Source: Bryum argenteum
Lineage: Eukaryota > Streptophyta > Bryopsida > Bryales > Bryaceae
Assembly (NCBI GenBank): GCA_037043015.1
Contig: CM073323.1
Span: 9,917,758-9,981,757 of the forward strand
DNA: 64,000 nucleotides
Direction of reading: 5' to 3'
The notes below the pieces were generated by a model that saw nothing but the letters and a program-made list of their open reading frames with translations, made no database searches and had not been told where the DNA came from. Shown here one piece after another: positions 1,851 through 54,299 of this stretch (position 1 is its first letter; the number at the start of each line of letters is the position of its first letter). The translations under genes and the position numbers were made by a program.

Positions 1851-3500
1851 TGGATGGCTATTTGATTTTTGTAACAATCGGTTCAAAAATATAGTGGGCA
1901 AAGTGACTTCTTCAATTTCGCAGACTCGAGAGTGTGTGGAATAGAAATGAGTGGCAAGTGACAAACACGTCATTGTAACCCTAAGACAAACTTACAGATG
2001 AATTTGAACTCGTTCTCGTGTTTCCTTGTTCGATGTTGCAATACTACACTATTGTGATGTTTGTAACTTACCTTCTAGCATCGACAGATCAACACTATAA
2101 CCCTAAATTTAGATCAGGTGTATGAAATTTCAGTTTCCGTAACAATCGCTTCATATTGGAGTGAGCAGCGTAACTTTTTCCATTTCGACGATAACTGTTC
2201 AAGAATGTGTGGAAGGAACTGATCGGATGGCAAGAGAGATACTTGCCACTGCAATCCTCACACAAGCAACCGGGTGAATCTAAATTCATTCTCGTGTTCA
2301 ATTGTTCGACTGTTGCAATGACGATTGTGATATATCTTCTACGGTCAAAACAGTAACGACAATTGTCAAAACAGCTCAAAAGCTTGAAACCCAAATTAGG
2401 TCTAGTCTGGGTTCCATACCAATTGCTTCAGAAATGGAATGAGTAAAGTAAAATCTTCCACTCTGTTCGCAAATCCAAGTATATGTAAAAAGAATTGATC
2501 AGACAAACACGCCATTACAACCCTTATTCAGAAGCTACCGGATGAATCTAAATTCGTTCTCGGGTTTGACTGTTCGATGTTATGTGGCAAGACTGATGCA
2601 ATGGTGATTTAATAGATATTTTACGGTCAGATCAGCTCAATTGAAAAATTTGCTGAAGCAAGTGACTTTCTAGGGTTCGTAACAATGGCTTTAGAAATGG
2701 AGTGAACACAGACAATTCTTATATTTCAAGAACAGCTGTTAGCGAATTCGAGAAAGTGTGGAAAGAAATAATCGGCTGCCAAGTCACAAACACGTCAAGC
2801 AACCCTAACACAGATGGATTAAAAATTTTCTTGTTTCCTCGACCGATGTTGTGTTGTAATATAGTGATTGAACTTCCTGTTTGGACAGATCAATACTTAA
2901 AACCCTAAGTCTAGTTCTCGTAACAATCGCTTCAAATTGGAGTACTCGAAGTGGCTTCTCCCATTTCAACGACAGCTCATCGCATATTTGAGAATGTGTG
3001 GAAAAAGATGATCGGACGGCAAACACGCCATTGCAATTCTAACAGAAGCTGTCAGATGAATCTTAATTCGTTCTCATTTTTGATTGTTAGACTGTTGCAA
3101 TAACGATTGTGATTTATCTTCGACGGTCAAAACAATAACGATAATTGTCAAAACAGCTCATAAGCTTGAAACCCAGATCAGGTCTAGTGCAGAACTTTCT
3201 GGGTTCCGTACCAATCGCTTCAAAAATTGAATGATTAAAGTGAATTCTTTCGTTCTATTCGCAAATTCAAGAATACGTAGAAAGAAATCATCGGACAAAC
3301 ACGCCATTGCAACCCAAAACCCAACCTGTCAGATGAATCCGAATTCGTTCTCGTAATTGATTGTCTGATATTTCTTAGATCTTTCTCGTGTCTGTTTGTT
3401 CGCTTCACGGCACTGTATCTTCCGCGCTTAAAGCAGCTACATAGTTTAATTCTTCGATCAAGAATATTAGGTCAAGTGCAAGACTTTCTAAGTTTCATAC
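1851..3500. repeat. Diverged ~270-bp tandem repeat block between TNL-A and RUS-A
   Basis: A landmark phrase (gtaacaatcgcttcaaat or a variant) recurs near 1871, 2139, 2409, 2683, 2920 and 3208, a spacing of about 240-290 bases. Each is followed at similar distances by gaatgtgtggaa, cacgccattgcaac, gatgaatctaaattcgttct and cggtcaaaacagtaacgac. About six old units remain. The same array is present in copy B (about 24,757-26,480), so it predates the segmental duplication. It fills the head-to-head promoter interval of the two genes. Confidence 0.8.
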
Positions 3501-35184: not shown

Positions 35185-36360
35185 GTATCACATGACTCAC
35201 ACGTCTTGTTCGTTGAGATCACGTAAATGCTGGACCAGCTTGAGTCTGCATTTCTAGCAATCTCCGTTTGTTAGCTTCTCTGGTTTTTCAACCTCAATAC
35301 TCTCTCACGAACCAGTTCTCGTCTCATGTTCTCATCGATCATGTTACAAATGTCCTCCTTGTGTGTGCATTGAGTCCTTCCTATAACTTGATATAAGTTA
35401 TGCTTACGCGTCTCACAAGCGAACGACTCTTCGTGTTGGAATTAATGGTTAGTATATTTCGCACGGTTTGGAAAAATGCCTGATTAGGAAGAAGTCTTCA
35501 CGCAATTCTTCTCTGATTTGGCGTTGGACAAAAGTTTGAGGAAGACACGAGTCAGCTCTTCGGATGTCAGCGCAGGTCCTGACACATAATACTAGACATT
35601 GTTCCTCATCCGAAGTCACCTCTGCTTACTTTATATCAAAGGAGCAGAAAATATAAGGGAAACATATTCTTTTGTAGATGTTTCCCGAAGGTCATCCAAG
35701 AGTGACGGGAAGGTGTGATACATTCTGGCCCTCTCCGCACACACCGTTCATAATTTGAAGACAGGTTGAGAATCTTGAACCTTGTGAAACGGTGCCTCGA
35801 AGGTACAGTACGTTCTCGCTGGGAGCAACTTTTTGTAGTTTGCTTCTAGAAATTGGGGTTCAAAACCATCAAGTGCGGAAAGGAGCCGTAGAACTCCCAA
35901 TGCATGGAGTTTCTATATCAGCTCTTCGCCTTTAAGTTGGAAAAACGACCATTGAATGGGCCCCAACCACTCACGCTTCTTTAAATGTGAATGATTGATG
36001 CTTAATATCTGCATCAATCGCTGACTCTTAGCATCTGGCAGACAGATGCAGCTTTAAGCTATTGAGCTATTTGGAAGCGGATTAGTATCACGACTTAGCT
36101 TTTTCTACTTGAGATGCGATTTAAGTCCAACTTCATACCGAACATAACCACCTCCACATCAGGCCACATTCAACACATTCTGTTCTTTGTAGACATGGTT
36201 GCGCATGGCTTGAAATGCTTGCTTGTACGTCCGGAAGAAAAACTGCTTTTTCGAAGGAGTGGCGGAACTTAAGATTGAAGAGATTGAATCTGATGTGTAT
36301 GTAAACACTACTAGGATAACCCCCCATATGCAACGTTTCAAAGCTACATTTACCTCCTCA
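35185..36360. other. No gene recognised
   Basis: Only short ORFs. A minus-strand frame at 36,159-36,455 is open, partly because of the neighbouring tandem repeat. Nothing assignable. Confidence 0.4.
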
Positions 36361-36513
36361 AGCGTTGCTTTTGCTGCGGTTACAAGGACATGTTGTTGGA
36401 GCAACGTCTCTAGCGTTGCTTTTGCTGCGCTTACAAGGACATGTTGCTGGAGCAACGTCTCTAGCGTTGCTTTTGCTGTGCTAACAAGGACACGTTGCTA
36501 AAGCATCGTCTCC
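36361..36513. repeat. 51-bp tandem repeat, three copies
   Basis: The unit starts agcgttgcttttgctg and recurs at 36,361, 36,412 and 36,463. It contains an internal palindrome (gttgctggagcaac). The length is a multiple of three, so the minus strand reads LLQQHVLVSAAKATLET repeatedly, but nothing shows it is translated. Confidence 0.9.
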
Positions 36514-37338
36514 AGCCAAATGACAAAACTCTTGGAAGAGGAGTAATATTGAGGTTCTTCTTATGTACCCAGGTAAGTAGCCCATAAAGTCAAACAAGCC
36601 TTAGCCTAACAACATCTAAGCGCACCGCTTCCCATATACTGCGCTCACTTTTTGTGGTTATACATAAAAACAAATTGTTCGTTAAATTAGTGCTCAACAC
36701 ATCCGAACATGCAGTTGTCATACATGAATATAAGTAGGAAAGTTGCACCTTCAAGCTGGCAATATCATATCATAGAATCAAAATGTTCTCAGTAATATGA
36801 TGAAATTTTAAAGGTAGAAAAGGAACTTTAGACACTAGTACCAAGGTAAACATGCTATGCCACACCATTCTATAATAAATAATAACCTCCTGAGTATTAC
36901 TCCTAACCTGTTGAATAAATGGGGGTGTGTCAATCCTCGTCACTAGGCAGCTCTAGTAGGGGAATGTGTTCTTCTACATCTACAGACAGCTGGCTACTAC
37001 AAAAAAACACTGAAGCGATGGGCTACGATACTGTCCATCAGCTTATAAATATCCAAATTGGGCTCTCTCGCACAACATCACTACCTCACAACCTCCTCCC
37101 AATGCATAACTGCACCAATCCAACACAACATCATCAGTTCCTATTATGACATGTTTGAGAGACCCTCGTGTTGTTGTACAACCTCACCCAAAAAAAAATC
37201 CTAACTCATCTGCTTGTCTTCAAAGCTGCACGTCTTCAAAGCAGTGGTCTGGATAAAGTATGTTGCTTGATCTCTACATAGGAAACTAGCCTGCACAATA
37301 ATCAGAAGGTTAAAAAAATGAGCCTCTATCTTGCTTAC
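36514..37338. other. No gene recognised; possible CACTA-like end at 36,994
   Basis: The sequence CTACTACAAAAAAACACTG followed by AGCGATGGGCTACG at 36,994-37,027 resembles the inside of plant CACTA termini. It is not preceded by an exact CACTA end and no partner was found. The rest is featureless. Confidence 0.35.
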
Positions 37339-37496
37339 CCATTCATGGCAGCGATGATGGGTTTGCGGGTACTAGTGATGGCATTCCAGTGATGTATTAA
37401 GCGAGAGGCGTAGGCATCCACGAACGTCTTCTCTTTCATCTCCTTGATGTCAGCGCCAGCAGCAAATGCCTTCTCTTTGCTTGTTATCACCAACGA
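37339..37496 (-). pseudogene. Enoyl-CoA hydratase exon fragment
   Basis: The minus strand reads MSLVITSKEKAFAAGADIKE and continues to KPIIAAMNG. AFAAGADIKEM and KPxIAAxNG are signatures of mitochondrial short-chain enoyl-CoA hydratase (crotonase fold, beta-oxidation). The exon ends at a good donor, AATGG|GTAAGC. No other exon of the gene was found nearby, so this is an isolated exon copy in a zone of mixed gene fragments. Confidence 0.8.
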
Positions 37497-39253
37497 CATT
37501 GTCTAGTTGCGCTTCAATCACCTACAAGTTGACATTCAATCCGTTCATGCTTCAGAGCACATACACTTCAAAGCCTTGCACTTGCTTACGGGAGTTACCA
37601 TCGCAACGACAGTGTGAGAAAGCAGCGACAAAGACTTGCTACAGAACCCTCTAAAAAATTACCGCTGCTTGTTCCTAAAACACCACAATTGTACAATTCA
37701 CAATACAATTCCACGGTCACAATCACGAAGTCAAAGAGAAAGACAATCTCACCTGATACTGCATCCGCATAGTTATAAGCATAAACCTCAGCAACAATCC
37801 AACAGTTATAAGCAGATACTTGAGAAACAATAAAAACAAAGCCTCCACTTTAATCCACAATAATCATCATCAAACACAAACCCAACCAAAAACACAATTG
37901 AATTGGGAATCATACAGTCTCAGCATGTTGGACCCTAATCGAATGCTGAATAAGTTCATACAAATCAGCATTGGTACGACCTCGTTTCGTCTCCTCCTTA
38001 AAAAAGACTCCAGTTGCTGTAATTCATCAGAAGTCCTCGTATCTTAACAGAGGTCAAGGGCAGGCAATGCTCATCCTCCTGTAAACTCATTGACCCCAAT
38101 CATTATTCAAGTAAAATGTTTCAATTGCTTTTTATTAAAAGTCCTCATCTCTTCACAAAGGTCAAAGGTGGGGCAAACCTCATCATCCTAAAAATCACTA
38201 GTCTCATTCCTCAAAGAGTCATTAAATCATTCTTCAAAGAGAATTTTTAGTCATCCTTTCAAATGGCGTTCCAATCAGAGTAGTGAGCAGATACAAAGTT
38301 TGTAGTATTTTTGCGGAGACAACTTCAAAGTTCGAAGCTCCGAAAGCATCTGAGCGGAGTATTTGAGCGCGTCTCGGAGATTGCTTGCGTCCTGCGAGAG
38401 CGCAAGGTTAAAAAATTGAAATTTAAAGTAAGCACATCGCAACCAGCATTGATTCAAGAAACCTCAAATTGGAGAAATCGGAAAGATAGGCAGAGAGAGT
38501 GCACGGACCACAGAGCGGTGCATGTAGAAAGCATTGTCTTTGCACGAGGCCATTGGCAAATTTTTGAACTCGACGGATCAATATGAACGAGCCAAAACGA
38601 TACAAAGCAACGCGCTCTTCATTGCGAACACGGACAGCTACTTTTTTTATGAGTCAGCTGCTGCGGTGATGATGACCACGGACGTGGAGAATTTGAAAGA
38701 GAGCCCCAAGAGACAGAAGCTGCTCACGCAAATCAAAAATGGCGACCGCGAGCCAGTTGTCCTCCTCCTCCGTGCTTCTCACGGCATCCTCTTGAACCTG
38801 CATCCCACAGCAATGTACAGCAATGTCTGATCCCCCACCCACGATTGAGGGAAAATAAACTCTGAAAATCCTCCCACAGCATTCTGCCTCCGTATCAGTT
38901 CAATGCATCAAACCCCCTCCCGAGTGTTTCCATTGCCTTGATTGATTCCAACAAGGGTTACAAGCCCGCCACTCAATGTCACGGTGTTCCTCGAACATTA
39001 TAGAGGGGCAACATGATTCTACAGTGCAAATACTACTCTTGATTCCAAAAAGGGGGTACAGATGGTCCTTAGGACATCACGATATGAGAGGATTGGCAAA
39101 AGGGCTTTACCGAAGCCTTTGCTGGTTTCCAAGCAACGCTTCTAACCCCCGAGAGTCATTGCTTTGCTACAGATCGTTGAAGAGCAAAGACCTTGCAGAG
39201 TGAGTGACAGGGGTTTAGGGTTCCGCAACCAGTGTGAACCAGTGAACGCCAGT
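37497..39253. other. No recognised gene
   Basis: Two plus-strand ORFs, 38,311-38,586 and 38,534-38,830, are open but match no family I recognise. They are basic and moderately coding-like and could be another captured fragment. The rest is ordinary intergenic DNA. Confidence 0.35.
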
Positions 39254-39550
39254 CACTACTAGTAACAACACTTGTGACTAGTTTGTCTTGTTGGAAGGTG
39301 AAAACTTTCATTCATTTGTTTATTGAGGCATCTCTTCACCAGTAGAGACTCTGAAGCTGATGAGGTCGACATTCCTGGTGGGTATAGATTGCTTGTACCT
39401 ACTATTAAGCAAATGTCCAATTCAATCATGTTAGAATAAAATTCTAATTTGCGCTCATATGACATATTATTTTTGTTGTTTTAAGAAATCCATATTCCTC
39501 AACAAAAATAAGGGGGTAAAAGTTTTTTACCTATTATGAGACAATTAGTT

Positions 39551-42500
39551 TTATTCTTGGGTAACTTCAAGCTCTCCATCAGACTGTAGGTCTTCAATCT
39601 CCTCTAAGCGCAAAGTTCCAACACTGAATTCAGGTAGGACTTCTCGATCATAATCACCTACATCGTCACTTGATAAAGACCTATTGTCTACTTCTAAAGA
39701 AACGTCATCAAAATCTATTGCGTCCTCTTCATGCTCAAGTGGATCCTCACCAGTTGAATCATCTGCCTCTACACCTGACAAACTTACATGAACACGCTCC
39801 CCCAATATATTGGAGGTCTCGCCATGGTCTTGAACTTCATCATCTACATCAACATCCTCTTCTGCACTACTTTCAAATCGAGATTTGCTAAAAAACACTC
39901 TTTTCGACCGAGTGTGCACTGGATGACTATTTTCCACCCTCGATTCAGCTTGTCGTCCAAATAGAACACTTGCTCTAAATCTTTTGGAAACATAAAAGGT
40001 TCATCCGTCATCCTATTGTCAGGCATGAATTTTTGAGCTCGAACACGCATGAACCCACATTCATCCAACACCACGGTGCCCCTTCGTCTGCTAGATTCCT
40101 CTACAGAATCGTACCACTTTCCTTTTATCAACACAGTGGAGAAAGAATCAAAGTTTAACCGAACAATACTACCAACGAGTCCAAAATATTCTTGAGTTCG
40201 GTCAGGGTGTTGAAAAGTTGCCGATATGCCTGAGTCCATAGTGGTCTTCTTTAATGTGTCTTTTGCTCGAACTCTAAAATGCCTACCATAGGCCCACAAA
40301 GCGTTCATAAATTCTCCCCTTGGTTGCGGGCCAATCGCCAAGTCCAACTCCGTATTTGAGACAACTTCTTTATTATAAATAGCTCATGTCACAGATTGAT
40401 GTATCCATTGCCGAAAATCACCAATATCTCTGTTGCCCTCCTTCTCTTCTTCATACCTACAAGTGTCACATGACCCACTTTTAAAATTTAAAAAATCTTC
40501 CAACAATTCTAGCTTATAAGAATTTTAATTTCAAATACTAAAAGTGTAAGATAATAAACTAGCTTAATGTAGAAAAACATACGTAACGACTATATCAAAA
40601 TTATAAGACAACAAGTCCTAGAGGTATAGTTGTATGTATTGATGAAGTTTCAATAAATGAATGGGTTTAAAGAGCAAGATTTATCCTACCTACACCAAAG
40701 AAGTATGTATGATACATTATACATAATTTATATGCAAAATCTGACATACATAGAATTGAAGTAATTTTGTGCGTAAATTTAAAACATTAGGCTTAGTATG
40801 CAAACTTACTTCCGTCTCCACTTATCCATTGAGGGGTGGTTGTGTAGTAAAAACCGATGAGCTTGTTCTTTAAAAACAACATCCATGCCTTGAAGTCTCC
40901 TTCTCGTCGGCAAAACCAAACCCAAGGTTTTGGGATCCTCCTCCGTTACCCATGCAGGAGGTGCACTTTTTTGCAACCTCGTTACAAACTCGCTTGCATA
41001 ATACATGGACTCTGATGCTACATAACCTTCTGCCATGCTCCCTTCTGGTTTTGCTCTTTGTCGAACAAAATCCTTTAATTCCTTCATGTAACGTTCGATA
41101 AAATACATCCAACGATACGATACCAGGCCAGCCATGCCAACTTCCTCTACTAAATGAGGTAACTGGTGGAATTGGGTGTCCAAGACAGTAGGTGGCATAT
41201 GCAACTCAACGAGGCATATGATCTCTGCAGCTTCTTCTAACTTTGCTGGTAAGTCATCTGGATCAATTTCTTTTGAACATATCCACCGAAATAAATTCCC
41301 AACTCTATACACTATGTTGCGCACTTCCGCCGTCAAAGTACCACGTATAGCCACTGGCAATATGTCTTGGATTAAATTATGGTAATCATGGGTTTTCATT
41401 CCGGTCAACTTCCCTTCACTAAATTTGTACATAAAAGAAGAGCCATACCCAGTGGGAGTTTTTGCGTGGCGAACCGTCTCTATCACTTCATCGAGCTCTT
41501 CCTTTGTCCACACCCATGGTGCCGGTACATACTCCACGCTTCTCTTTCCATCATGGTCAAAGGATTCAAATGGTTGGAGAGTACGCCTTATACCTAGTTC
41601 TTTCAAAGCTTCTCGTACCCGCATTGAATCTGCCTTAGTGCCTTTGCAATTGGAAAATGTCTTGAAGATAGCTGCTGAGATATTTTTTTCTACATGCATT
41701 GGATCTAGAAGATGAGGACACTTTAGAGTCTGCAATATCAAAACATTGAGTATCATGAGGTACTATAATACACATGGACAATCAGTAACAACAATTATAG
41801 AATCTAATAAATAATGTTTTATTTGTCTGTATCACAAACTTAAATTAATAATTGAAGCTAGTTACCAAAAACAATGCTCACAAAGCGACTCCATGAAATT
41901 TTAAGAAACATTCTAACAAAAACTATATAGTGAAATCAACCCTTACAACATAACGATCCGATTCAAGAAATCACTTGTTCATTTAATGTAAACCTAAAAA
42001 ATTCCTTCATTATAACCAAGTTGAGTAATATAGTACAAACCTCATAATAAGGAAGTCGATAAAAAATACTGTAAGCCTTCATGCCACTATCTTTTAAAGG
42101 CACACTTCCATTCACAACCTTGTCCCATTGGTCACACCAAAACTTTGGTGTAGTGCGAATTGGAACTCGTTCAGCTCGTTTGTTGCAAGGATACAAACTA
42201 TCATATCGCGGATCCCTCCAAGGGTGCCTCTCGGGCAGAAACCGTCTATGGCCTATGTAGATAACCTTTTTCAAAGCGGTTGAATAGTGCGAGGTTACCT
42301 GATTAGGTCTGCAAGGTGGACACGATTTATGACCTTGCGTTTGCAATGATGAACAAACTCCGTACCCAGGAAAATCGTGCATGGTCCAAAGAAGTGCTAC
42401 ACGAAGAGTGAACCATTCTTTCCTTGATTCGTCGTAAGCATGAATGCCATTCCTCCAAAGAACAAGTAGCTCATCAATTATTGGTGCAAGGTATACATTC

Positions 42501-44597
42501 ATGTCTTTAACTTTCCTTTTCCCTACATAAGAAACAAGGGTAAATACTCTGCTTGATTTCACTACACCACATGAGGTCAATATAAATATGATCACCCAAA
42601 AAAAATGATGAAAACAATAGTTGTTTTACTAACTACTCATTGTTACTAAAAACTGAAAAACTACTAGGATAACCATTTGCATAGAAAACTCTTCAACAAA
42701 ATCAAATATCAATAGTTTCTTTTTTCAATCTATGTAGTATATGAAAATTATATGGATTTCTAAATAACAAAACATTACGTATAGCAAAATCAATTATACT
42801 CTTATTTTCTAAAACTAACATGATTTGATACTTCATAAGCAAAAAACTTGAAGCTAATTACGTGTTGATTGTATACTCCTTGTACCTGGTATAATTGCTG
42901 ACAGAATAACGTGTCGTTTGTGAATTGACAACCACGGAGGTAAATTGTAAATCACTGACATAATAGGCCATGTCGAGTGACTTACGGTGTTGTTTGAGAA
43001 AGGGTTCACTCCATCCATTGCAAGGCCTAACCTCACATTTCTATCTTCTTGAGCAAAACTTGGCCATTGTTTATCAAACTCTCTCCAACAAAGTGAGTCT
43101 GAGGGCACTCTCATAATTTTGTCATGGCTTTTGTTCTCCATGTGCCACGTCATGAGTTTTGATAACTTTGGACTTCTATAGTGTGCTATTAGTCTTGGGC
43201 CCAAAGGGAAATAAAACATTTTCTGCACATACAAGGTACAATCATAATTTGTAAAGAGTGAGGTGCAAGGATGAACTTCTTTAGAATAGATTTAGCGACA
43301 ACCAAAAATAATGTGAGGGTAATCAAACAAAATGTACAATACTTGAATTTGCTATAGCACAATAGGGAGGAACTAACCTTCCGAGGGACGGTTTTTTTTT
43401 CATAGTCAGGATTGTATCAAGACAATTCACATACCGGACAATTAGTGTAATCTGCATACTCCTTGTAGTACAAAATGCTATCACAAGGGCAAGCGTGAAT
43501 AACCTTGTAATCCATGCCAACTCTGCTGATAATAGATCGAGCTTCTTGTCGATTATTAGGAAGTTTGGGCTCCAATGTACTTCCTATTATGTGCTCTGAG
43601 ATGGCCTTCATAATATCATCCATTGCCACATTAGATATGTTGTGTCTTGCTTGGATATTTAGTAACAACAAAATTGTGCTCAATTTGGTAGATGTTGCAC
43701 CACGAAATAGGGGTATGGATGATTCTTGCTGCAGGATAGTAAGTTCTAAATCTTCATTTGCCCCACCAGTAGACCGTGTGCTCGATGTGTTGTAATTGCG
43801 ATGAATTGACAACATTTCTTTTAAAACCTCCTCAAAGTCTTCTTCTTCTTCCCATCCAAATGTCTCTCTTTCATTTTGCACATCATATGAAGGAGAAGAT
43901 GGCCCAACACCTTCATTATCATCACTTGAGGTATGCATGGTAGAGGTGGCGGAAAGTACTTGTGCATCAAAGATGTCCTAGTACCACAACATGAAGATTC
44001 ATATAAAAATAAATTCTCAACTAAATAAATTATAACGTAAAGCAACCTAGTAAACCAAACACCTTTTATATGCACAATATCACTAATATTTTAGGCATGG
44101 ACTTCTCAAAGATAGTAAGCACAAAAACTTTTGGCCTAAAATTTCAAAAGTTGCTAAGTTTGAGCATAGATGTTGAAATCACCTCAATGCCAAAAATTAT
44201 CAATCTTATACATTAATTTACCAATAAATTTCAATAAATAAGTATACTTTCAAATATTAAACACAAAAAGTCATTCCATGTCAAAGCTTTAGAATCCCAC
44301 AATCATAGACCACTTAGAAAAACGTACCTTATATAACGATCCCATTCCGTTTCTTCGAATGTGCTCATTTGCAATACGGAGGAATCTTGGAGTAGGAACA
44401 CTATTTCTTTCACATTTTTTACATGGACAAACCACCCTCAATTGTGAATTAGTCCCCGCTTCTTGGCTTCGAGTACTTTCCGGAAAACGAGTCCATTGCC
44501 TTTGAGATGGTTCCTCATGAGGTTCAAAGTCTTGGTCTCCACTTGTATCATGAGGAATAAATTCTTCTCCCGTAACTGCTTTGTATTTACGCACCAT
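39551..44597 (-). pseudogene. CACTA TNP2-type transposase, decayed
   Basis: Six exons with GT-AG junctions: 44,597-44,328 (transposase-associated motif VVCPCKKCERN), 43,978-43,378 (KVIHACPCDSILYYKEYAD), 43,222-42,886 (RNVRLGLAMDGVNPF, STWPIMSVIYNLPPWL), 42,522-42,041 (MNVYLAPIIDEL, WTMHDFPGYG), 41,729-40,810 (DPMHVEKNI and a DUF4218 block) and 40,456-39,551 (DUF4216, VFYLDDKLNRGW, acidic tail). These are the standard TNP2 landmarks in order. Lesions: TGA at 43,419-43,417 in exon 2, where an Arg codon is expected; TGA near 40,385-40,390 in the last exon; and a probable frameshift near 39,920-39,940 between the DUF4216 block and the acidic tail. The enzyme would not be made, so the element is non-autonomous now. 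Confidence 0.9.
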
Positions 44598-46723
44598 TTT
44601 CCTACATAAGAGCGATCATAGATCAGGATAAGAAAGGAATAGTGCCTCAAAGAAGTGTGAGTTTCAAGACAATACAAATTAAGTGCCTCCACTATTTTGC
44701 TAATTCTTGTAAGCTATCAATGAAGGTGCATATTGCATATCAACCATTTTTTAAACTTATGAAATATAATGTAGCTCTTGACAAAATTCCTTTCTAGTAC
44801 TTCAATAAATGAATTCACAACACCTTTTGCCTCCTCATCCGCACTTTCATTAATATACTATGTTATAGTCTATGCTATATGTTGCTTCACAATGATATGT
44901 TTATTGTATTTGGAAGCATTTAAGTTCAAATCTCTCTATGTTCATTTGTTGAATGAAGCCACAAAAGTTTTATGATGCGCCTTATGACAAATAAAATGAC
45001 ACTATATTGAAGGTTAAGCAGAAAGAAAATTCTAATCTCTAATCCACAAATTTATTTGCAAATTTTATAGAAAATAACCCATTCTCAAATTCTTCTTGTT
45101 CCGTGAATGGTTGCTTGGGATTCCACTGAACAAGAAGCAACCACACATGTATTGTAAAAAAGCTTCTCAAAATCTCTTTTTTTGAAGAACTTTTCCACAA
45201 TGCACATCCTCTTAAATGATATTCTTGATTTCAACTATTAATAACCTTTTGACTCCAAATTTTGTATTCATTTCTACCAAAGTACACTAGAAAAAATAGA
45301 GTCTATTTCAACCTTATTACTCTAATTGTAGAATTTAGTTTAAAATATAAACATTTACCAATCAATAAGACATGATTTTATATTATAGGAGTGTTATAAA
45401 ACCAACGACAAAAATACGTTGGGGTCACATATTGCCTTGAAGTTACATACTTAGGATATAGTGAACATGCTTAGGATTCATTCTCATCCGAGCAATCTCA
45501 GTTACATTGTTGATAACATTCAACAAAAGCATATTGCTATCCACCTGATGCGATCAACCCAGAAGTTCTTCTTAACATAAATACCCTACAAGTGGGAAAA
45601 TTCATATGATTCGTGAAAAGAAGGGGACCTTCGAATGTAAGAAGTTAAGTTTCATATGCCAACTTCTAGAGCATCAAAAAAATAAAAAAATCTGTATATG
45701 CTAAACTCATAACAGCGTTTTTGTAGACACCTAAATCCGTGAAGATTATGGCATGATAATATAACACATGAATAAACTTTAGGGGTCCTTGATAGAGAAC
45801 TTCAATTGGCGACAAGAAATAAAGTGAAAATTATACTTCAGAATATTGTGAGAAATTAGACCAGGTATTTTGAAACTTCTTACGTTCTACACAAGGAAGA
45901 AGGGTTAAAAAATTGTTTGAAGCTGTGAAGTTGCCGATTTGAACGTCTTCAGTCAGGAAGTCCTTCCAAGCATCCTGCAAGAAAGATCACAATTAAAAAG
46001 CCTGACAAGAAGAATGTGATTAAAAAAGGAAAGGCGGCTCCATCACTAATCCAAGTGTTTATTAAGTTACTGTTTCTATTGGAGGGATCACCTGATTTGG
46101 AAGATAGCCATGTTCTTCTGTGTAACTAGCCAAGAACTTCTCAAACCACCTTAGTTTGAGACCCACGCCAGTACTCTCCAAGCATATGTGATTCTTTTAT
46201 GGTTTTCACTTCCTGCCAATCGCCGACTCGGCTAAGAAAATGGAATTGAAGAGAAAACTTCTTGCTGGGTACTAAATTAGAATGTAGAGACGATATGAGA
46301 TTTGAAATTTCTATGTCAAATTGAATACCAATGGAAACAAATAAGGCAACGAAATAAACGAAGGAATCAATCAAAGAAACTTAGGGTGAATAACTGGAAA
46401 CGAGAGAGCTCAGGACAATACTCAGGAACGAATGGAGGAGAGTCCCATCTCCTGAAGTTAATAGAGAGTCCCATAGGAATTTCCGACAATCACTTTACTT
46501 GGGATTTACTCGAGTTAACTTGGGATTCACTCGGGTTAACTTAGAGACTAACTAACTTTCTATCTTCTTAACATGTAGAAGGAGCTGGCTATAGATTCCC
46601 GGCTCGTGGCGTAGATTCCCAGCTTCGCCGTAGGAGCGGGCAAAACCATCGGTTCCTGATGAGGGTTGCAGAGGAAGGCTAGCTTGTTTCTGCATTTTGA
46701 GTACTGTCTTTGAGAGATCAATG
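44598..46723. other. Region between the two divergent CACTA genes
   Basis: AT-rich, only small ORFs. It separates the 5' ends of the TNP2 relic (minus) and the second ORF (plus), so it probably held both promoters. A short direct repeat (cttgggattcactcg, cttgggatttactcg) occurs at 46,498-46,535. Confidence 0.5.
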
Positions 46724-47184
46724 ATGGCGCGCAAGAAGAAGCAGACGGTGAACGCAACCCCAAACTCATGGAAGAGGTTGAAAAAAGTCGCAAACACAAT
46801 TGACTCTGTTGTTGCTGTGCCAACACAAATTTTTGCTTATCAGAGAAGACCACCTTCAGTACCTTGTCAACCTTTAGGTGAGAATAGTCGTGCTGCCAAG
46901 AGAAGGCATAAGGTTCAGGGGTGTCGACCTTTGGTTAGCAAAGAGAGAAGTGACAATCATGAGTTTATTGAAGTTGAAGGCAACACGCCGCAAGAAGACA
47001 GAAGCGATGGTTTTGTTGGCGTACCAGGGAGCTTGCGGCAAGAAGAACGATCTATTGTTGCAGTTCGAGGGAGCTCTCCACGTAAACAACCCTCGGTGAG
47101 TGTGAATGTGTGATGTTGATGCCGTGGTCTGTTAGAATCTTTAGAGTGTGGCAATCACAAGCGCGATTCGTGTGCCGAATGAAG

Positions 47185-47325
47185 CTCGGGGATGCCAGCC
47201 TCGAGCGCGAGTTTTCCAGCCAAAACGGCTGAGAGGGGTGTCTGTTCCGCGTTCTTGAGCACCACGGTGTTGCCAGCTGCAAGCGCGGGCGCCACCTTCC
47301 AGGCGTATATGACCATGGGGAGCGC
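47185..47325 (-). pseudogene. Aldehyde dehydrogenase exon fragment (captured)
   Basis: The minus strand reads [20 protein letters not shown] and [20 protein letters not shown]. [26 protein letters not shown] is the cofactor-binding region of family 2 aldehyde dehydrogenases, which oxidise aldehydes with NAD. The exon is short and ends after EAGIPE; no other ALDH exon is present. It lies antisense within the presumed large intron of the second CACTA ORF, next to the ankyrin exon in the same orientation. Confidence 0.85.
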
Positions 47326-47498
47326 TACGATCAGTTTCAGAGTCACAATAGTATGAGAAGAATAGATTGCTTTCTTGCGTAGATGCGGTCTCCAAGATTG
47401 CCGCCGAATGAAGCTCGTGAAGGTGGCGATCCGTGTGCGGTTCTGTGGTTTTGTATGAATCTGTGGTGCTTCTGAAGCTCCCGGCTAACTTAACTTAC

Positions 47499-47828
47499 TC
47501 GTTTCAATCTCAAGACGGCCACTACCACGATAATGTTGGCACCTACGACGTACGCGTCACGCTCTTTCTGCAGCTTGCTGATGTGTTCCTTGACGTCCTT
47601 ACGCTCTGCGAGGAGCTCGCAAAGATCCTTGTAGTTGAGGTCGTGGGCGTAGTCCAAGGCTGTCTTGTGGTACTTGTCTTTTCTATTCGTTCGTAGAGAC
47701 CAACCCTGTTCCGAACACAACGCCTGGACCACTTTAAGTTGCCCCAAGATTGTTGCAACGTCAAGTGGAGTCTGGTTCTTTTCCTGGTCCATAATCTCGT
47801 TCGCTAAATGCGGTTGCCATCTTAGAAT
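47499..47828 (-). pseudogene. Ankyrin-repeat (PGG-type) protein exon (captured)
   Basis: A complete exon with acceptor TACCCCAG|ATT at 47,828 and donor CGA|GTAAGT at 47,499, open throughout (110 codons). It begins ILRWQPHLANEI, has ankyrin units NQTPLDVATILGQLKVVQAL and KTALDYAHDLNYKDLCELLA, then KEHISKLQKERDAYVVGANI and IVVVAVL, the usual lead into a PGG membrane segment. Plant proteins of this class are membrane-bound ankyrin proteins. Only one exon is present, so it is a captured piece, but it is splice-competent and uncorrupted. Confidence 0.85.
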
Positions 47829-49542
47829 CTGGGGTATCAGGCTTGCGGCACGGGTTTCGATGGCTCAGCGTAGCAGGGAGGGACCTAGCAACTGTTCGGT
47901 AAGCTCCTGAAGCAGAAACGAACAGGGTTGGTCTCTACGAATTAGTCGTACATGTGTTTACACTTTTATTCCCGTTGACTTATGAACCGTCACTGTGTGC
48001 TATTGTTGAAACTCTTTTATCACCAGAGTAATAAATTGCTATTCGAATTTAGGTCTTTTACATGATCGGAGTTTCTAGCTTTTCTGCTTTCCTTACAAGC
48101 TTCATCTTCATGAGTCCTTTCAGTTTTTTTGCTCCGTAGATTCCTGATGTCAATTTCGATCAAATTTATTACTTCATGTTGTAACAATACCAGTTTCCAA
48201 ATATTCTGGTTAGTATCAACATGTATGCATCTGCTATACTTCTCATTTCTGTCGTGTGCAAATCTGCTCATGTTTTGACAAGTTGTTCTTGTGGATGGAA
48301 ACTTATTCTTCGTTCCCATGAAGATACAGTACTTTGTCGATTGCTACTTAAGACTACTGTATTTGAGTGCTGATGTTGACCATGATGAGTGATCTTGGAA
48401 GGATTTTGAATGATTTTGAGTTCATGCTTCTCAAATTTATTTAGTTTTTAATGGGCCCTGACATGCTGAGTGCAGGATCGAGAATTGGACTCTCCACCAA
48501 TTGAGGCTGTATATTTTCGACCAAGTTTTGAAGTAGCCATGAGACAAGCTGGTTCTTCTGATGAAGAGGGGGGCGAGTATGATGACCATGTTGTAAAGAA
48601 AGAAAAGAAAAGGTTAGTAGAAATTCAACAGAAGTGAATCCCTCACGTAGTAAGGTTGTAAGTAGATTTGGGAAATCTGTTTTGGCAGATCCTTTCTCGA
48701 TAGGGACCTTTGAAACCGACCACACAGATATTCCAGAGTATGAAGTCAACTCTCAGTACAGGCCAGTTGGTCAATTTTGGCAACACATTCGAGCTCAAGC
48801 GTTTGTGAGGGCTGCAATGTTTTTTGATTGGGATATTCCATGGTCAAAACAACCCCCCGAATTGAAAATGCGCTTCAGAATTCGATTGAAGAGCATTTAT
48901 AAAGGAGAGTGGGATGATAAATGGGTGATGCAACAAGTCGGCAACAATCTTCGAGAGAAACGTGTTCGAATCAGGAAAGTGTTCAAAAAAGCAGGAACTT
49001 GGAAGGTAACTCCACTTCCCTATGGTTTGAAGGAGCATTCCGCCCGTGCGATTTTTGCCACATTGCAAGACCCCAAACATGTGGACAAGTCCGAAAAATG
49101 CAAGGTTGCTGCCGTTGCAAGAACTGTAGCGATAGGCTACACACACAAACTAGGCCCAGGAGGTGTGAAGTCTCTATTAAGCAAATTTGTAAGTTATTTT
49201 TACCTATTTTGATTCATTATTCCAATACTTTTAACATCTATAATATCTAATAATTGTTTATTATGTTGTAGTGGTGTGCGACTATCTTTTGCTCAAATGC
49301 ACTGCTACTTGTTTACTTTGGACAATCTATAGAATGTGGTGTTCTTACTTTATGTTTATTGTGTTTATTACTTTAACACTGTGAAACGATAATGATTGTA
49401 TTTATTGTGTGTAGGAGAGGATGTTCAAGAGGCATCCCCAAGCAATGGAGGTAGATTATGCAAAGCGTCATGGTTTTGACTCTTTGAGTGCAAGGTTGTT
49501 GAAAGGCGAGACAATAGTGGCTACGCACAATATTGGGGACTA

Positions 49543-50277
49543 GTGGGGAAGGTGGTACGAGCTAGTTTGAAGTGACAATGCGCAATGGGCATGTCTTTGT
49601 GAAAGAACAATACTTTCGATTCTTCACAATGTAAGTGAAATGATATTTCATTATTTCATACTTTTGATTTTCTCAATGAAAGTGAAATGATATATCTTTC
49701 TTTCATAAATGGTTCAAATTGCATACTTTGTTAGAAAATTTCAGCTCCTGTTTGTGAAGAGATCGTTTTGTGTTGGATCTTGTGTTTGATCTGTAATCTG
49801 TAAGCTTTTGTAACATTTCTTTTCTGTAGTCAGGAAACTCATCCTATATTACGAGTAGTAACAATAAAAAGAAGACAAAGTCCTAAAAGCACTGTGTTGT
49901 CGAATGCTCCGAGTGTCCACTGACATGCTTCTGACAGTGGGCCGGCTCCACATCCTCCATTCGGCATCATGGATTACATACCTTGGCCTGCAAGGATCGA
50001 GCTTTGTACGAGAAAGGAAGTTGTTGGTTCTCACCGTTTCATCATGTCCTAAGCCTAGAGATCGTTGCATTGTTGGCTCCGAGTGGCGATGATGGTCTGA
50101 CGAGTGTGGGATTTGTGCGCAGAAGTAGTTGGTGGGCTCGATTGCGGCGTGATGAGTAGCTACTTCTGAATCTTGAGCTTAGAGTTTCGGTGTGGGAGGT
50201 GTTGATGGGCGCTCAGTTGCATTGAGCGGCTTTGTCGAGAATCGAACTTTGATTGGAGGTTGAAAGGTTGAGCGACG
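49543..50277. other. No gene recognised; upstream of the aldehyde oxidase copy
   Basis: Follows the last exon of the second CACTA ORF. The right part (about 50,080-50,277) is probably 5' untranslated or promoter DNA copied with the aldehyde oxidase exon. Confidence 0.4.
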
Positions 50278-52910
50278 ATGGGTCTTCCATCGACGGTGAA
50301 GCCGGCGCACCAGCCACTCGTGTTTGCTCTCAATGGAGAGAAAGTGGAGCTTTCTTCCGTGGTTCCTGCCACCACTCTCGTCACCTACATTCGCAGCGAG
50401 ACTCGTTTCAGAGGCCCCAAACGGGGCTGTGGCGAAGGTACGAGAAACCCTCACAGTTGCACTTGCAGTGAAATGTCTTCTTCGCGTGTAGCCGTGTCCA
50501 TGCTTTTGCCACTCTTAATATCGTGTGGCTTGAACCCCTCTCCTCACATTGAATTGAAGTACTGTGCTCACTATTTGATGTTGTTAGAGTAGTCAATGGC
50601 TCATGTGGGTTTTTAGTTTTTACTTAGCTATGGAGGCGTTTCTTGTGTGATTCTTGTCACTCAAATTTCGTATTTTGAACACGATCGTGGCACTGGTGGT
50701 GTCTACTAGTGAAGCTAAGCTCTCACCGGAGTTTTACCATCGCACGTGCCCCCACATCCACCACATTGCCAGAACGGAAGTTGTCAAGGCTGTCGCTGCT
50801 GAACCTCGAATCGCCGCTTCTTTAGTTCGTCTCCACTTTCACGACTGCTTCGTTCATGTAAGTCATGATCACGACTGTGTTGCTTGATTCGTGTTCTGTG
50901 CACATGCACTGGTTGTCAGTAACAATGTTTTACTAGCTAGAACGTTACGTACTTCAGCACTTTACCAGGGCATTGTTCTTTGGAAATCGGTGTTTTGGGA
51001 CGGTAATTGATGTGACTTTACAAGTCTGGTAATTGAACCAAATTGGTCAAAGTTAGATCTAGAGGATGACAATCTGGTAGAAAAACTGCCAAGAAGTGTA
51101 GCTACTTGTTCTTGAGTAGAAACCCTTTCATCATTGTCACTGTAGTACTTAGACCATGCCGAGTGGTTCCTCAAAACACCACTGTAACATGGACTTGTTG
51201 GGCATAGTCTTAGATTTTTGTAAGATCCCTCGTCTTTTATCAGTGACAGTGTAGTTTGTGTTGAAGGCTTGAAGCTCTATGTATACATGCATGGGGGGAA
51301 TTTTTACTTTGTGCTATGTTGATACTTCCGCAGTGACTTGCACTTCTGATATGAATATCGTTACATCCGGATTAAGTTACAGCCTGTTGTGCTTCTTAAA
51401 GATGAGAATGGGAATGTGATGTGTGGGCAGGGATGCGATGGGTCGCTCCTGCTGGACAACACAACGAGCGGGTACGTGATCGGAGAAGTACGCCGAGCCA
51501 ACATCAACTCCGCCCGAGGCTTCGACGTGATCGACACCAAAGGCAAGGCGCGGCACTTTGAATGAGCTTGTCCTCGAACGGTCTCGTCTTGCGGATATTC
51601 TCGCAATTGCCTCCCGAGATTCTCGTTGCGGTATACATATCATACTCTTTGAATCCTTGATTACCACAATCATCTTGCCCTTTGGGTCTTGATCGATTTG
51701 GTTTTTAAGTATGTATGCGCAGCGGGCCTTGTGCCACCGTATCCAGCTTTTCTTGATCGCGCGACGGCTTTCTCACGGCGAGTGTCCTCGCAAGCGTTGA
51801 TCTTGCTGATATACGTCTGCCTAGTCCAAACTTCAAGTACGCTCAATTGAAGGAGAATTTTGCAAACGTGACCCTGAATGAAAAGGATCTTGTTGCACTC
51901 TCAGGTATGTGCTCAGATCAATCTCTTCAGCTTCGTGTACTCATATTGTGCTTTCATCTCTATGGTATTTTTTTTGTTCACTCTCAATTTAAAAGTTTGT
52001 TATGGGAAGTGGTTGTTTGATAAAGAGCAAAATGGTTTGTTTCTGATGGTTTGCTTGATAAAGGTAACCTGCTCAAAATCCAAGTTTCATCATTAACCCA
52101 TTTTGGTGTATGACCAGAAAGACGTACTTGTTACAAATTTACCCTTCTAAACACCAGTCGTTGGGCATATTAGCGAAGTCATGTGAGTGAGTTCTGGGTG
52201 GTTACCCTGGTTTCGAGCTCTGTTGTGGTCGTGTTCGAATTCTGCGATGGTTTGGAGTTTCCGCAGCTGAGTATTGACTGACATGAATTGCAGGTGGCTG
52301 TGAAGCATGCTTGGTGATGCTGGCAAAGTATGATCCGGAAACGGAAGAAGTAATGGAGGAGTCGGTGAACTCGTGCTTGGTGATGCTGTGCTCGATCGAT
52401 GGCTGCGCAATCACCACCACGGAAGGCTTGGGCAACCAGCGAAGCGGCTTTCATGCCATCCAGAAACGCATGTCGGCATTTCACGGCTCGCAGTGCGGCT
52501 TCTGCATGTACCCCCGGCATGACAATGGCCATCTATGGCCGCCTCAAGCACGAGCAAAAGCAGCAGCAGCACATACACAAATTTAAGAAGCCAACAATGG
52601 GCACCGCAACAGCAGCGGCCCAAGCGCCTAGACCATGGAGAGGGCCATTCAGGGCAGCATCTGTCGATGCACAGGCTATCGACCCATTCTGGACGTGTGC
52701 AAATCGTTCGCCAACGACGTCGACCTCGAAGATCTGGGCCTCAATACTTGCTGGGCCGACAAAGCCCACGCCAAGCCTGAGAATCTGCCCGCGTACGACC
52801 CCAAGCTAAGGCCGACCCCGCGTTCCCCCAATTCCTCATCGAATATGTCGAGTCTATTCACCAAGATTTTAGTTAGATTTCAGTTCTTTCTTGTTTTTCT
52901 TGATAGGTGA
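50278..52910 (+). pseudogene. Aldehyde oxidase (xanthine dehydrogenase family) N-terminal fragment
   Basis: Exon 1 (50,278-50,437) encodes MGLPSTVKPAHQPLVFALNG and ends RGCGEG at donor GAAG|GTACG. Exon 2 starts at 52,294 and continues GGCEACLVMLAKYDP, NSCLVMLCSIDGCAITTTEG, GFHAIQKRMSAFHGSQCGFC. This is the 2Fe-2S module of molybdo-flavin aldehyde oxidases. A 4-base insertion after CGFC shifts the frame. The original frame returns for GSICRCTGYRPILDVCKSFA and DVDLEDLGLNTCW, and another shift precedes ADPAFPQFLIEYVESIHQDF. The FAD and molybdopterin domains are absent. The intron of ~1.86 kb contains a peroxidase fragment. The cluster cysteines are still present; conserved Gly in GGCGAC is Glu here. 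Confidence 0.85.
50630..51904 (+). pseudogene. Class III peroxidase fragment inside the aldehyde oxidase intron
   Basis: The exon 1 frame starts at ATG 50,630. It has an in-frame TGA at 50,648-50,650 in the signal peptide, then KLSPEFYHRTCPHIHHIART and LVRLHFHDCFVH with donor CAT|GTAAGT (50,857). Exon 2 at 51,430 gives GCDGSLLLDNTTSG and NSARGFDVIDTKGKA, then a stop, ACPRTVS and, after a frame change, ADILAIASRDS. A third part gives RDGFLTASVLASVDLADIRL and LNEKDLVALS, ending at a donor (51,904). Secreted heme peroxidases oxidise phenolics in the cell wall. The distal heme region is present but the proximal-His exon is missing. Same strand as the host aldehyde oxidase copy. Confidence 0.85.
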
Positions 52911-53079
52911 AGATTTGATTTTAAGATGCCTTCTAGTATATATTTCATGTGCAAGTTATATTACACTCCTATTTTTGAATATATTATTCTGAATGCGTGC
53001 AGCCAAATAGGTGAGACTCTTTTCTGTTTTATTTACGGTTGCATTTGCAGTCTTGTAGCGTTATGTGTTAACTTTTGGA

Positions 53080-53130
53080 GACAATCGGGTGAACGGACCC
53101 TCCACGTGGGTTCGAGCCCCACGGTTGTCA
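53080..53130 (+). other. Truncated tRNA-like hairpin
   Basis: GACAATC at the 5' side can pair with GGTTGTC at the 3' side as a 7-bp acceptor stem (one G-U pair). In between are one small GGGT/ACCC hairpin and a perfect T-arm, CGTGGGTTCGAGCCCCACG, with a B-box (GGTTCGAGCCC). D- and anticodon arms are missing. It is a tRNA relic or tRNA-derived repeat, not a working tRNA. Confidence 0.45.
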
Positions 53131-53330
53131 AGTAATACAAAAAGCTACGTTGTCAAGTAATATGAAAAGCTACGTTTTTGGCGTAACATTACTTACACCC
53201 CCTACGTAGCATATGTGAAAGCAATGTTTTTTCGTTGCTCATGCTATGTTTGCATACACTCCCCATAGCAAGCTTCTCCTTTCAAAAAGCTACGTTTTAG
53301 GCGTAGCTGTTCCATGTTATTCTAGTAGTG
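53124..53330. repeat. CACTA right-end subterminal repeats and terminus
   Basis: AAAAGCTACGTT units occur at about 53,140, 53,165 and 53,286, with an inverted CGTAGCT near 53,301, and the block ends TTCTAGTAGTG. The first two lie in a 25-bp direct repeat (gttgtcaagtaata...). Short clustered motifs next to a CACTA end are the usual transposase-binding arrangement. Confidence 0.7.
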
Positions 53331-54299
53331 AAAGTAATAAGGAAGGCAAGAATGGAGAATGATCATTCACCTCACCGCGCTTTCGTATATTAAACCATGA
53401 GGCTGGACGTTATATCGTTTGTGAATCGATAGACATTGTACCCACAACGTGCAGCTTGTAATAAGGATGAGTTTGCCGAATTTGCATGATGAAAGAGACC
53501 TTCTTCAGTCAATGTATACATTAGTGATGCATAAAACATCAACAACTCTGACTTCTGTGACCGTTGCAGTGTGTAAAAATCGAGAGTTGCAAACTATAAT
53601 TATGGGGATGTGAAGTGCGATGGGAAAAGCGAAATTGGTGGTGTAACAATTGAGTATTTATTGAATAGAAATTGACAGTTGCAACTTAGCATTTAATCAC
53701 TGAAAACAATTGACATCCTCAATTTAAAATCTACATCCTCACTACTCAATTTACATCCTTCTTACTCATTTTACGTCCTAAATTCAAATTTTAACATCCT
53801 CGAAATTTTTTAGCAATTTTTTTTGTGAATCTTAGTAGTTCGCATATTCATGATCTCAAGATGAATTCCAAGAACTTTCTAGTTGGAAGAGTTCTGATCC
53901 AAAGACTTTGGTATTGGATTTGCAATGATGTTTCTACACTAAGAAATGTGAAATAGTGGATGATTTGTGAGGAGCCACATGTCATTTTTCTACCTTGAAT
54001 TTTAAGTTTTTAACTATATTACTTGGGATGGATTCCAATTAGAGTCTAATTTTAGTGATAGGAAGCTGGACCCAATTAAAAATTGTTTTGAAGATAAGGC
54101 ATGGATCTCAATGGAGGGGTCTAGTTTTGACTATTTCTCCTTTCTTAAAGTTTTGCTAATGTAAATGTTGTGAAATAGTGTTTTTTATGGTTGATGACGA
54201 CATGTTTACCAGAGTACAGAGAATATGCCGTATATGTTCCAGGAAGTATATGTGCCGTATATATTCTTTTACTTTCAATTAATTATATAATTATACAAA
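53331..54299. other. Intergenic between CACTA end and MULE region
   Basis: No gene is seen. Part of it (about 53,850-54,130) resembles, reversed, the AT-rich intergenic DNA near 12.4-12.9 kb (aagttctttggatcaaaaag, tggatgatt), so it is probably another dispersed repeat. Confidence 0.4.

Follow-up and report, generated by a model that had tools for sequence, protein, structure and literature searches.

Transposons of the CACTA superfamily that collect pieces of host genes are already known. The nearest published case found is Tgm-Express1, a soybean CACTA element of the wp allele, which is reported to hold several unrelated host fragments together with introns and usable splice sites (PMC1947982). 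CACTA elements of wheat chromosome 3B and of Chenopodium are also described as holding host genes or gene fragments (PMC4290129; PMC8978399), with 145 genes in 140 capture events, or about one per event, in wheat (PMC4290129), and one or two captured fragments in the Chenopodium elements (PMC8978399). The Pack-CACTA and Pack-TYPE elements of Arabidopsis, rice and maize are bounded by terminal inverted repeats and, by the account given of them, enclose host DNA between intact ends (PMC8903248). A 2026 review states that DNA transposons may capture unlinked gene fragments by an “alternative, yet undiscovered mechanism” (PMC13317346). The stretch considered here (the window; 64,000 nucleotides of Bryum argenteum, G000:C3:9917758-9981757) contains, at window positions 36306-53330, an element comparable to these, which is very probably a CACTA (En/Spm-type) DNA transposon into which host DNA has been taken repeatedly.

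The explanation favored here, which is probable, is that breaks inside the element were repeatedly repaired by template switching onto host DNA and that ordinary transposition then spread the enlarged copies. A bolder reading, with a probability of roughly 0.35, is that a coding CACTA family would take in host DNA serially, multi-template repair of breaks being the route and captured introns the landing sites of later captures, and would build nested chimeric gene cassettes from many chromosomes that it then spreads. The two parts of the favored explanation differ in strength: the structure of the element and the order of its captures, as they appear from parents and related copies, form the firm part, and the template-switching repair route, which we infer, the weaker one.

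The limits of the element are defined by four features.

36306..53330, no strand assigned: whole CACTA element, 17,025 bp, with the target-site duplication (TSD) AAA on both sides.
36306..36320, plus strand: left terminal inverted repeat, from comparison of the end sequences.
53316..53330, minus strand: right terminal inverted repeat, from the same comparison.
36357..36509, plus strand: subterminal repeats, three direct copies of 51 bp.

The terminal inverted repeat is 15 bp long and reads CACTACTAG(G/A)ATAAC; the left end at 36306, CACTACTAGGATAAC, matches the right end, CACTACTAGAATAAC, in reverse complement at all but one position. These ends begin with CACTA or CACTR, and the three left subterminal copies are accompanied by shorter repeats on the right, both as in the CACTA superfamily. 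The 3-bp TSD of that superfamily is present as a matching pair in six of the seven elements with both ends, namely the window copy, the copies C5a (TAT/TAT) and C5b (TCA), and three small relatives; among these matches, the end of the C11 relative was shifted 1 bp by eye. The right terminus recognized in the original prediction is real and lies at 53330, where 15 of 30 non-self matches stop (query 3330-3333, window 53329-53332). A paralogous empty site at C8:14256360-14256699 carries the window flanks without the element: similarity to the left flank ends at 36303 (81%) and similarity to the right flank starts at 53333 (86%), a single base lying between the two. The left boundary had originally been placed at 39254, but this position was rejected, since copy C5a continues beyond it and stops at 36306; the string CACTACTAG at 39254 falls in a captured piece of VPS35 and occurs in the VPS35 parent on C5 as well. 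The length of 17,025 bp follows from 36306 being the true left end and the string at 39254 being VPS35 DNA. Apart from that string, the exact ends CACTACTAG/CTAGTAGTG occur in the window copy only at 36306 and 53322; end strings with one mismatch lie at 36953, 42659 and 50703, the last of them in the peroxidase piece and also in its parent.

Between these ends, 6,103 of the 17,025 bp (about 36%) derive from nine loci elsewhere in the genome (258.8 Mb searched, in 25 contigs, written here as C2, C4 and so on).

37068..37495, minus strand: enoyl-CoA hydratase (ECH) fragment; C4:13712440-13712919, 82% with gaps, 7.5% substitutions; parent with ECH_1, E 1e-13.
37500..39338, minus strand: VPS35 pieces, 1,262 bp in total, split by two later inserts; C5:7292816-7296059, 82-91%; parent with Vps35, E 3e-11.
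38565..38738, plus strand: fragment of a C7 locus, nested in VPS35; C7:13675132-13675299, 92%; parent with only weak Pfam hits below the cut-off.
38814..39155, minus strand: fragment of a PsbP-domain gene, mostly outside the recognized domain, nested in VPS35; C4:19968802-19969127, 89%; PsbP, E 8e-8, in a neighboring frame of that locus.
47133..47321, minus strand: aldehyde dehydrogenase (ALDH) piece, remnant of a 436-bp match that persists in copy C5d; C5:17535147-17535582, 93% over the exon; parent with Aldedh, E 2e-55.
47377..48082, plus strand: piece of the C2u locus, split by the ankyrin insert into 47377-47509 and 47950-48082; C2:29791215-29791816; parent without a Pfam family above the cut-off.
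47510..47920, minus strand: ankyrin-gene fragment; C9:10746436-10746846, 2 of 411 bases differ.
47920..47941, plus strand: 22-bp fold-back (inverted) copy of part of the ankyrin sequence, at the end of the insert; identical to C9:10746637-10746616.
49830..50684, plus strand: aldehyde oxidase (AO) 5' flank, exon 1 (about 50278-50437, by eye) and 5' part of intron 1; C2:29297789-29298748.
50685..52100, plus strand: peroxidase fragment that includes exons and introns, lying inside AO intron 1; C2:6545137-6546552, 91%.
52101..52855, plus strand: AO intron 1 (3' part) and exon 2 (starting near 52294, by eye); C2:29297038-29297787, 96.6%.

Outside the family, each piece has a single place that it clearly matches best, with alignments of about 130-1,600 bp at about 82-99.5%; AO and peroxidase have weaker paralogue matches besides, and VPS35 contains a short one. 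As in Pack-TYPE elements, host gene DNA thus lies between intact ends, and seven of the nine parents are backed by Pfam families above the cut-off. The AO and peroxidase pieces are copies of DNA, since they include introns, and in the former some 450 bp precede the start codon (by eye). The AO parent (about C2:29292500-29298206) shares the exon-2 frame changes of the captured copy and may be a decaying gene.

At least four captured genes had been proposed in the original prediction. The four named are all present, but the count is nine loci, with the addition of ECH, VPS35, the PsbP-type gene and two unnamed loci. The ALDH and ankyrin pieces pass the Pfam cut-off (Aldedh, E 2e-13; Ank_2, E 8e-8); those of AO exon 2 and peroxidase exon 1 fall just under it (Fer2_2, E 6e-7; peroxidase, E 5e-6) and are matched by genes on C2 at 88-97% and 91%, respectively. 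The pieces do lie in both orientations, and the ankyrin stretch is open as described (47493-47864, 124 aa), as it should be when copied at 99.5% from a gene with a single exon; the parent on C9 is an open frame of 593 aa. A candidate parental locus was found elsewhere for every piece, and the alternative in which every fragment would belong to a full-length local gene was not borne out. A mosaic of this kind was absent from two 3.3-kb controls (3,666 and 2,718 first-look candidates; n = 2, matches unannotated). The control from the right flank matched a dispersed repeat and the C8 paralogue of the flank, along with 191 bp elsewhere and a 1.9-kb stretch of which a few partial copies exist; the control near the peroxidase parent has dispersed repeats over about one third of its length and otherwise matches only itself. 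A high-copy dispersed repeat occupies window 53843-54155 in the right flank.

The same pieces recur in other copies bounded by CACTA ends, in agreement with the original view that a CACTA element had captured unrelated host genes. Copy C5a (C5:8841227-8857998, minus strand) carries all nine cargo loci and aligns with the window copy over 36306-46425 (98.9%) and 46792-53330 (97.8%). The copies C4 and C5b hold ALDH, C2u, ankyrin, AO and peroxidase, and retain 36 bp of ECH and short stretches of VPS35; in both, 37104-39302 is replaced by a 3,312-bp mosaic, in which a TPR gene (C10) is interrupted by pieces of a LOB gene (C8), of a C6 locus and of a C4 locus. The C6-locus and C4-locus sources have no Pfam family above the cut-off, and PDB sequence searches with frames of the C7 and C4:7166103 sources gave nothing convincing (best E 0.09 and 0.16). 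The C6 copy has ALDH, C2u and AO and is without ankyrin and peroxidase (its far left was not recovered), and C5d has ALDH and C2u and is without ankyrin, AO, peroxidase and VPS35 (left end not recovered). Four small elements (C8:15065771-15068360, C2:5707374, C3:3288385 and C4:4539945) share a piece of C5:15802693-15805230, a locus with no Pfam family above the cut-off; in the C8 element this piece is about 94% identical. Source loci across the family number 14, nine of them with a Pfam family above the cut-off, and the same inner junctions are seen at two to four places in the assembly whose flanks differ. The LOB, PsbP and peroxidase genes among the parents indicate a land plant as host.

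Over the transposase region, the window copy differs by substitutions of 0.6% from C5a, 1.3-1.4% from C4 and C5b, and about 4% from C5d and C6. Cargo and parent differ by 0.5% (ankyrin) to 9-11% (VPS35), a spread which suggests that the captures are probably of different ages. Extra stretches in C6 (4.2 kb) and C5d (1.3 kb) were considered as further captures and rejected, since they are ordinary multi-copy repeats. Additional DNA is present inside C5b (about 12 kb, C5:7897806-7909740), C6 (6.2 kb, C6:3716045-3722242) and C5d (1.5 kb, C5:10790815-10792353). About 1 kb past the truncated right end of the C6 copy, at C6:3706342-3706453, there is another CACTA left end, which has the opposite orientation.

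The order of capture can be read from nesting. Five inserts lie within earlier captures, four in the window copy and one, a composite, in C4 and C5b; they can be ordered because the surrounding captured sequence survives uninterrupted elsewhere, in the parent for all five and also in a relative element for two. The AO intron is uninterrupted in the AO parent and in C6 at the position where the window copy holds peroxidase, which replaced one base of the intron (by eye). The ankyrin site is uninterrupted in the C2u parent, in C6 and in C5d, the last of which has an ordinary repeat elsewhere in C2u. Elements still without the filler are therefore available for peroxidase and ankyrin (C6) and for ankyrin (C5d). 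The VPS35 parent has neither the C7 nor the PsbP insert. In the composite, the C8, C6 and C4 pieces sit between C10:5361705 and 5361709, where 3 bp separate the two halves in the TPR parent, and the joints show one 4-bp gap and overlaps of 3, 2 and 2 bp. Because donor, unfilled acceptor and filled product survive in one genome for several captures, their breakpoints, order and templates are directly readable.

As for the mechanism, each capture would start with a break or a stalled fork inside the element. Repair would copy about 0.17-1.6 kb of unlinked DNA, sometimes switching template, and the copied piece would be rejoined with little or no homology. The enlarged element would have stayed mobile because its ends were not hit, and it would spread its cargo by ordinary transposition, the cargo being assumed to hitch-hike neutrally. 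Gap filling after excision and replication-fork switching are both compatible as the repair route. A 22-bp exact inverted self-copy closes the ankyrin insert, and a 9-bp string is copied twice at the VPS35/PsbP junction (by eye). Such a fold-back, and the joining of three unlinked sources, would be the expected trace of a template-switching polymerase in break repair.

Several points weigh against this explanation. Microhomology is only weakly above chance, the values at 7 of 19 junctions being 0, 0, 1, 1, 2, 3 and 3 bp, with 0.67 as the null mean (strict ungapped test; probability of at least 3 bp, 0.05 per junction), and these seven filler-free junctions were picked after the output had been seen, one of them having a mismatch beside the joint. 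The other 12 of the 19 have short filler, indels or failed anchors. Microhomologies of 5-7 bp from a gapped projection onto the parents were dropped, the ungapped test giving 0-3 bp. Around the C7 insert there is an imperfect 5-bp repeat (by eye), for which a staggered break or transposition is another explanation, and copy C4, one of the seven two-ended elements, is without a target duplication. Of five extra stretches in C6, C5d and C5b, the test for capture covered two, the 4.2 kb of C6 and the 1.3 kb of C5d. VPS35 diverges from its parent by more (9-11%) than the window copy does from C5d (about 4%). C5d was considered as a state preceding the capture of VPS35 and AO, but because its left end was not found and because of these divergences it may equally have lost AO, peroxidase and VPS35. 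Finally, the break, polymerase and transposition steps are deduced from sequence.

The element also has genes of its own.

39566..44597, minus strand: TNP2 transposase gene (Transposase_21, DUF4218, DUF4216), last exon interrupted in the window copy, exon limits by eye.
46721..49209, plus strand: second element gene, exons about 46721-47094 and from about 48476 (by eye), from open reading frames and copy comparison.

The Pfam matches on the minus strand (Transposase_21, E 6e-31; DUF4218, E 8e-24; DUF4216, E 1e-7) identify a TNP2-type transposase, as in the CACTA superfamily. The first five of its exons are open in the window copy and the sixth is interrupted (limits by eye). The state of the gene varies exon by exon among copies, with interruptions in C5a, C5b, C5d and C6; the sixth exon is open in C4 and C5b. 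The ALDH and ankyrin pieces lie within the presumed intron of the second gene, as had been noted originally. For the TNPA/TNP1-type second protein of the superfamily, a Pfam scan of the second-gene stretch 48586-49209, which has open frames, gave no match at E 1.

The arrangement of the captured exons raises the alternative that selection keeps a functional chimeric gene, for instance one in which AO exon 1 is spliced to the peroxidase exons or to AO exon 2. The AO 5' flank, exon 1 donor and exon 2 acceptor are co-oriented with the peroxidase exons (limits by eye), and the cargo of Tgm-Express1 is reported to be spliced into transcripts (PMC1947982). However, the window copy has breaks in the reading frames of both peroxidase and AO, and the captured exons diverge more than the introns between copies, the reverse of purifying selection, which makes such a gene unlikely. 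Between the window copy and C5a, differences amount to 5.5% in AO exon 2 and 3.5% in the peroxidase exons, against 0.3% in the peroxidase introns and 0.6% in the transposase region; the trend recurs in C4 and C5b, though it is weaker there. Sites within 4 bp of a CHG motif account for 39% of difference events, compared with 22% of aligned bases. This pattern points to base errors left in the assembly or to a mutational process linked to methylation. Frame changes in the captured exons are accordingly not to be read literally, because the copy differences cluster there near CHG. The differences pile up at window 52294-52855, 50685-50857 and 51431-51640, and also in the ankyrin piece of C5b.

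Serial capture by the CACTA family itself has further to be weighed against delivery by other gene-carrying transposons (Helitrons, Pack-MULEs and the like), which would have brought the pieces into the element. Nested insertion is common in plants, and the C7 piece has its imperfect short flanking duplication. Such carriers are quite unlikely, as each piece has one clearly best place and no dispersed family with the same ends was seen (no dedicated search for Helitron or MULE ends was made), parent sequence directly abuts parent sequence at the resolved junctions, and the fold-back and the three-source composite do not fit.

In the Pack-CACTA model, two nearby CACTA copies are mobilized jointly with the DNA between them, and their inner ends then decay. 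This neighbor fusion is published for Pack-TYPE elements (PMC8903248; PMC13317346), and an extra CACTA end does lie near the C6 copy, at C6:3706342. For the window element it is very unlikely: the 13 source loci of the window copy and C4/C5b are spread over eight contigs (C2, C4-C10), five inserts sit inside earlier captures whose flanking parts are contiguous in the parents, and the window copy has no inner exact end besides the VPS35-internal string at 39254, a search that covered this copy and not the inner ends of C4 and C5b. An assembly artifact or chimeric join, for which only the abnormally dense copy differences in the captured exons, and hence likely local base errors, could be cited, is extremely improbable given that the inner junctions stand at two to four places with different flanks and that an empty site exists.

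Serial capture by break repair, the explanation retained here, sets the window element apart from the described systems in several respects. Tgm-Express1 measures 5.7 kb and has five fragments, with no transposase gene mentioned in the parts of its description available, whereas the window copy has 17 kb, nine loci, TNP2 and a second gene, and nested captures; chimeric transcripts are shown for Tgm-Express1 (PMC1947982) and would be a prediction for the window copy. Pack-TYPE elements are called non-autonomous in the account cited, whereas the window copy has TNP2 domains, albeit with the last exon interrupted, and the fusion mechanism proposed for them does not fit its unlinked, nested pieces (PMC8903248). 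For the wheat and Chenopodium elements, the accessible portions of the two accounts describe no polarity of capture from empty sites, unlike what is found here (PMC4290129; PMC8978399). The metazoan Pack-TIRs (gap filling, FoSTeST) resemble the window element in the filler DNA within elements bounded by terminal inverted repeats, the short microhomology and the later transposition, but they belong to animals and, as far as their published description could be drawn on, serial nested captures are not part of it (PMC8277862). Stepwise capture of fragments has also been read from related copies of maize Helitrons (PMC3288121), whose ends and transposition differ from those of CACTA elements. In the open-access literature searched, no CACTA element with nine captured loci was found, and cases in print are still possible. 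Among gene-collecting CACTA transposons, the window element is thus an unusually rich and readable case, set apart by the number of its sources, by their nesting and by the joint survival of donor, acceptor and product, and its family shows how far one mobile element can gather the exons, introns and 5' flanks of many genes into one cassette.

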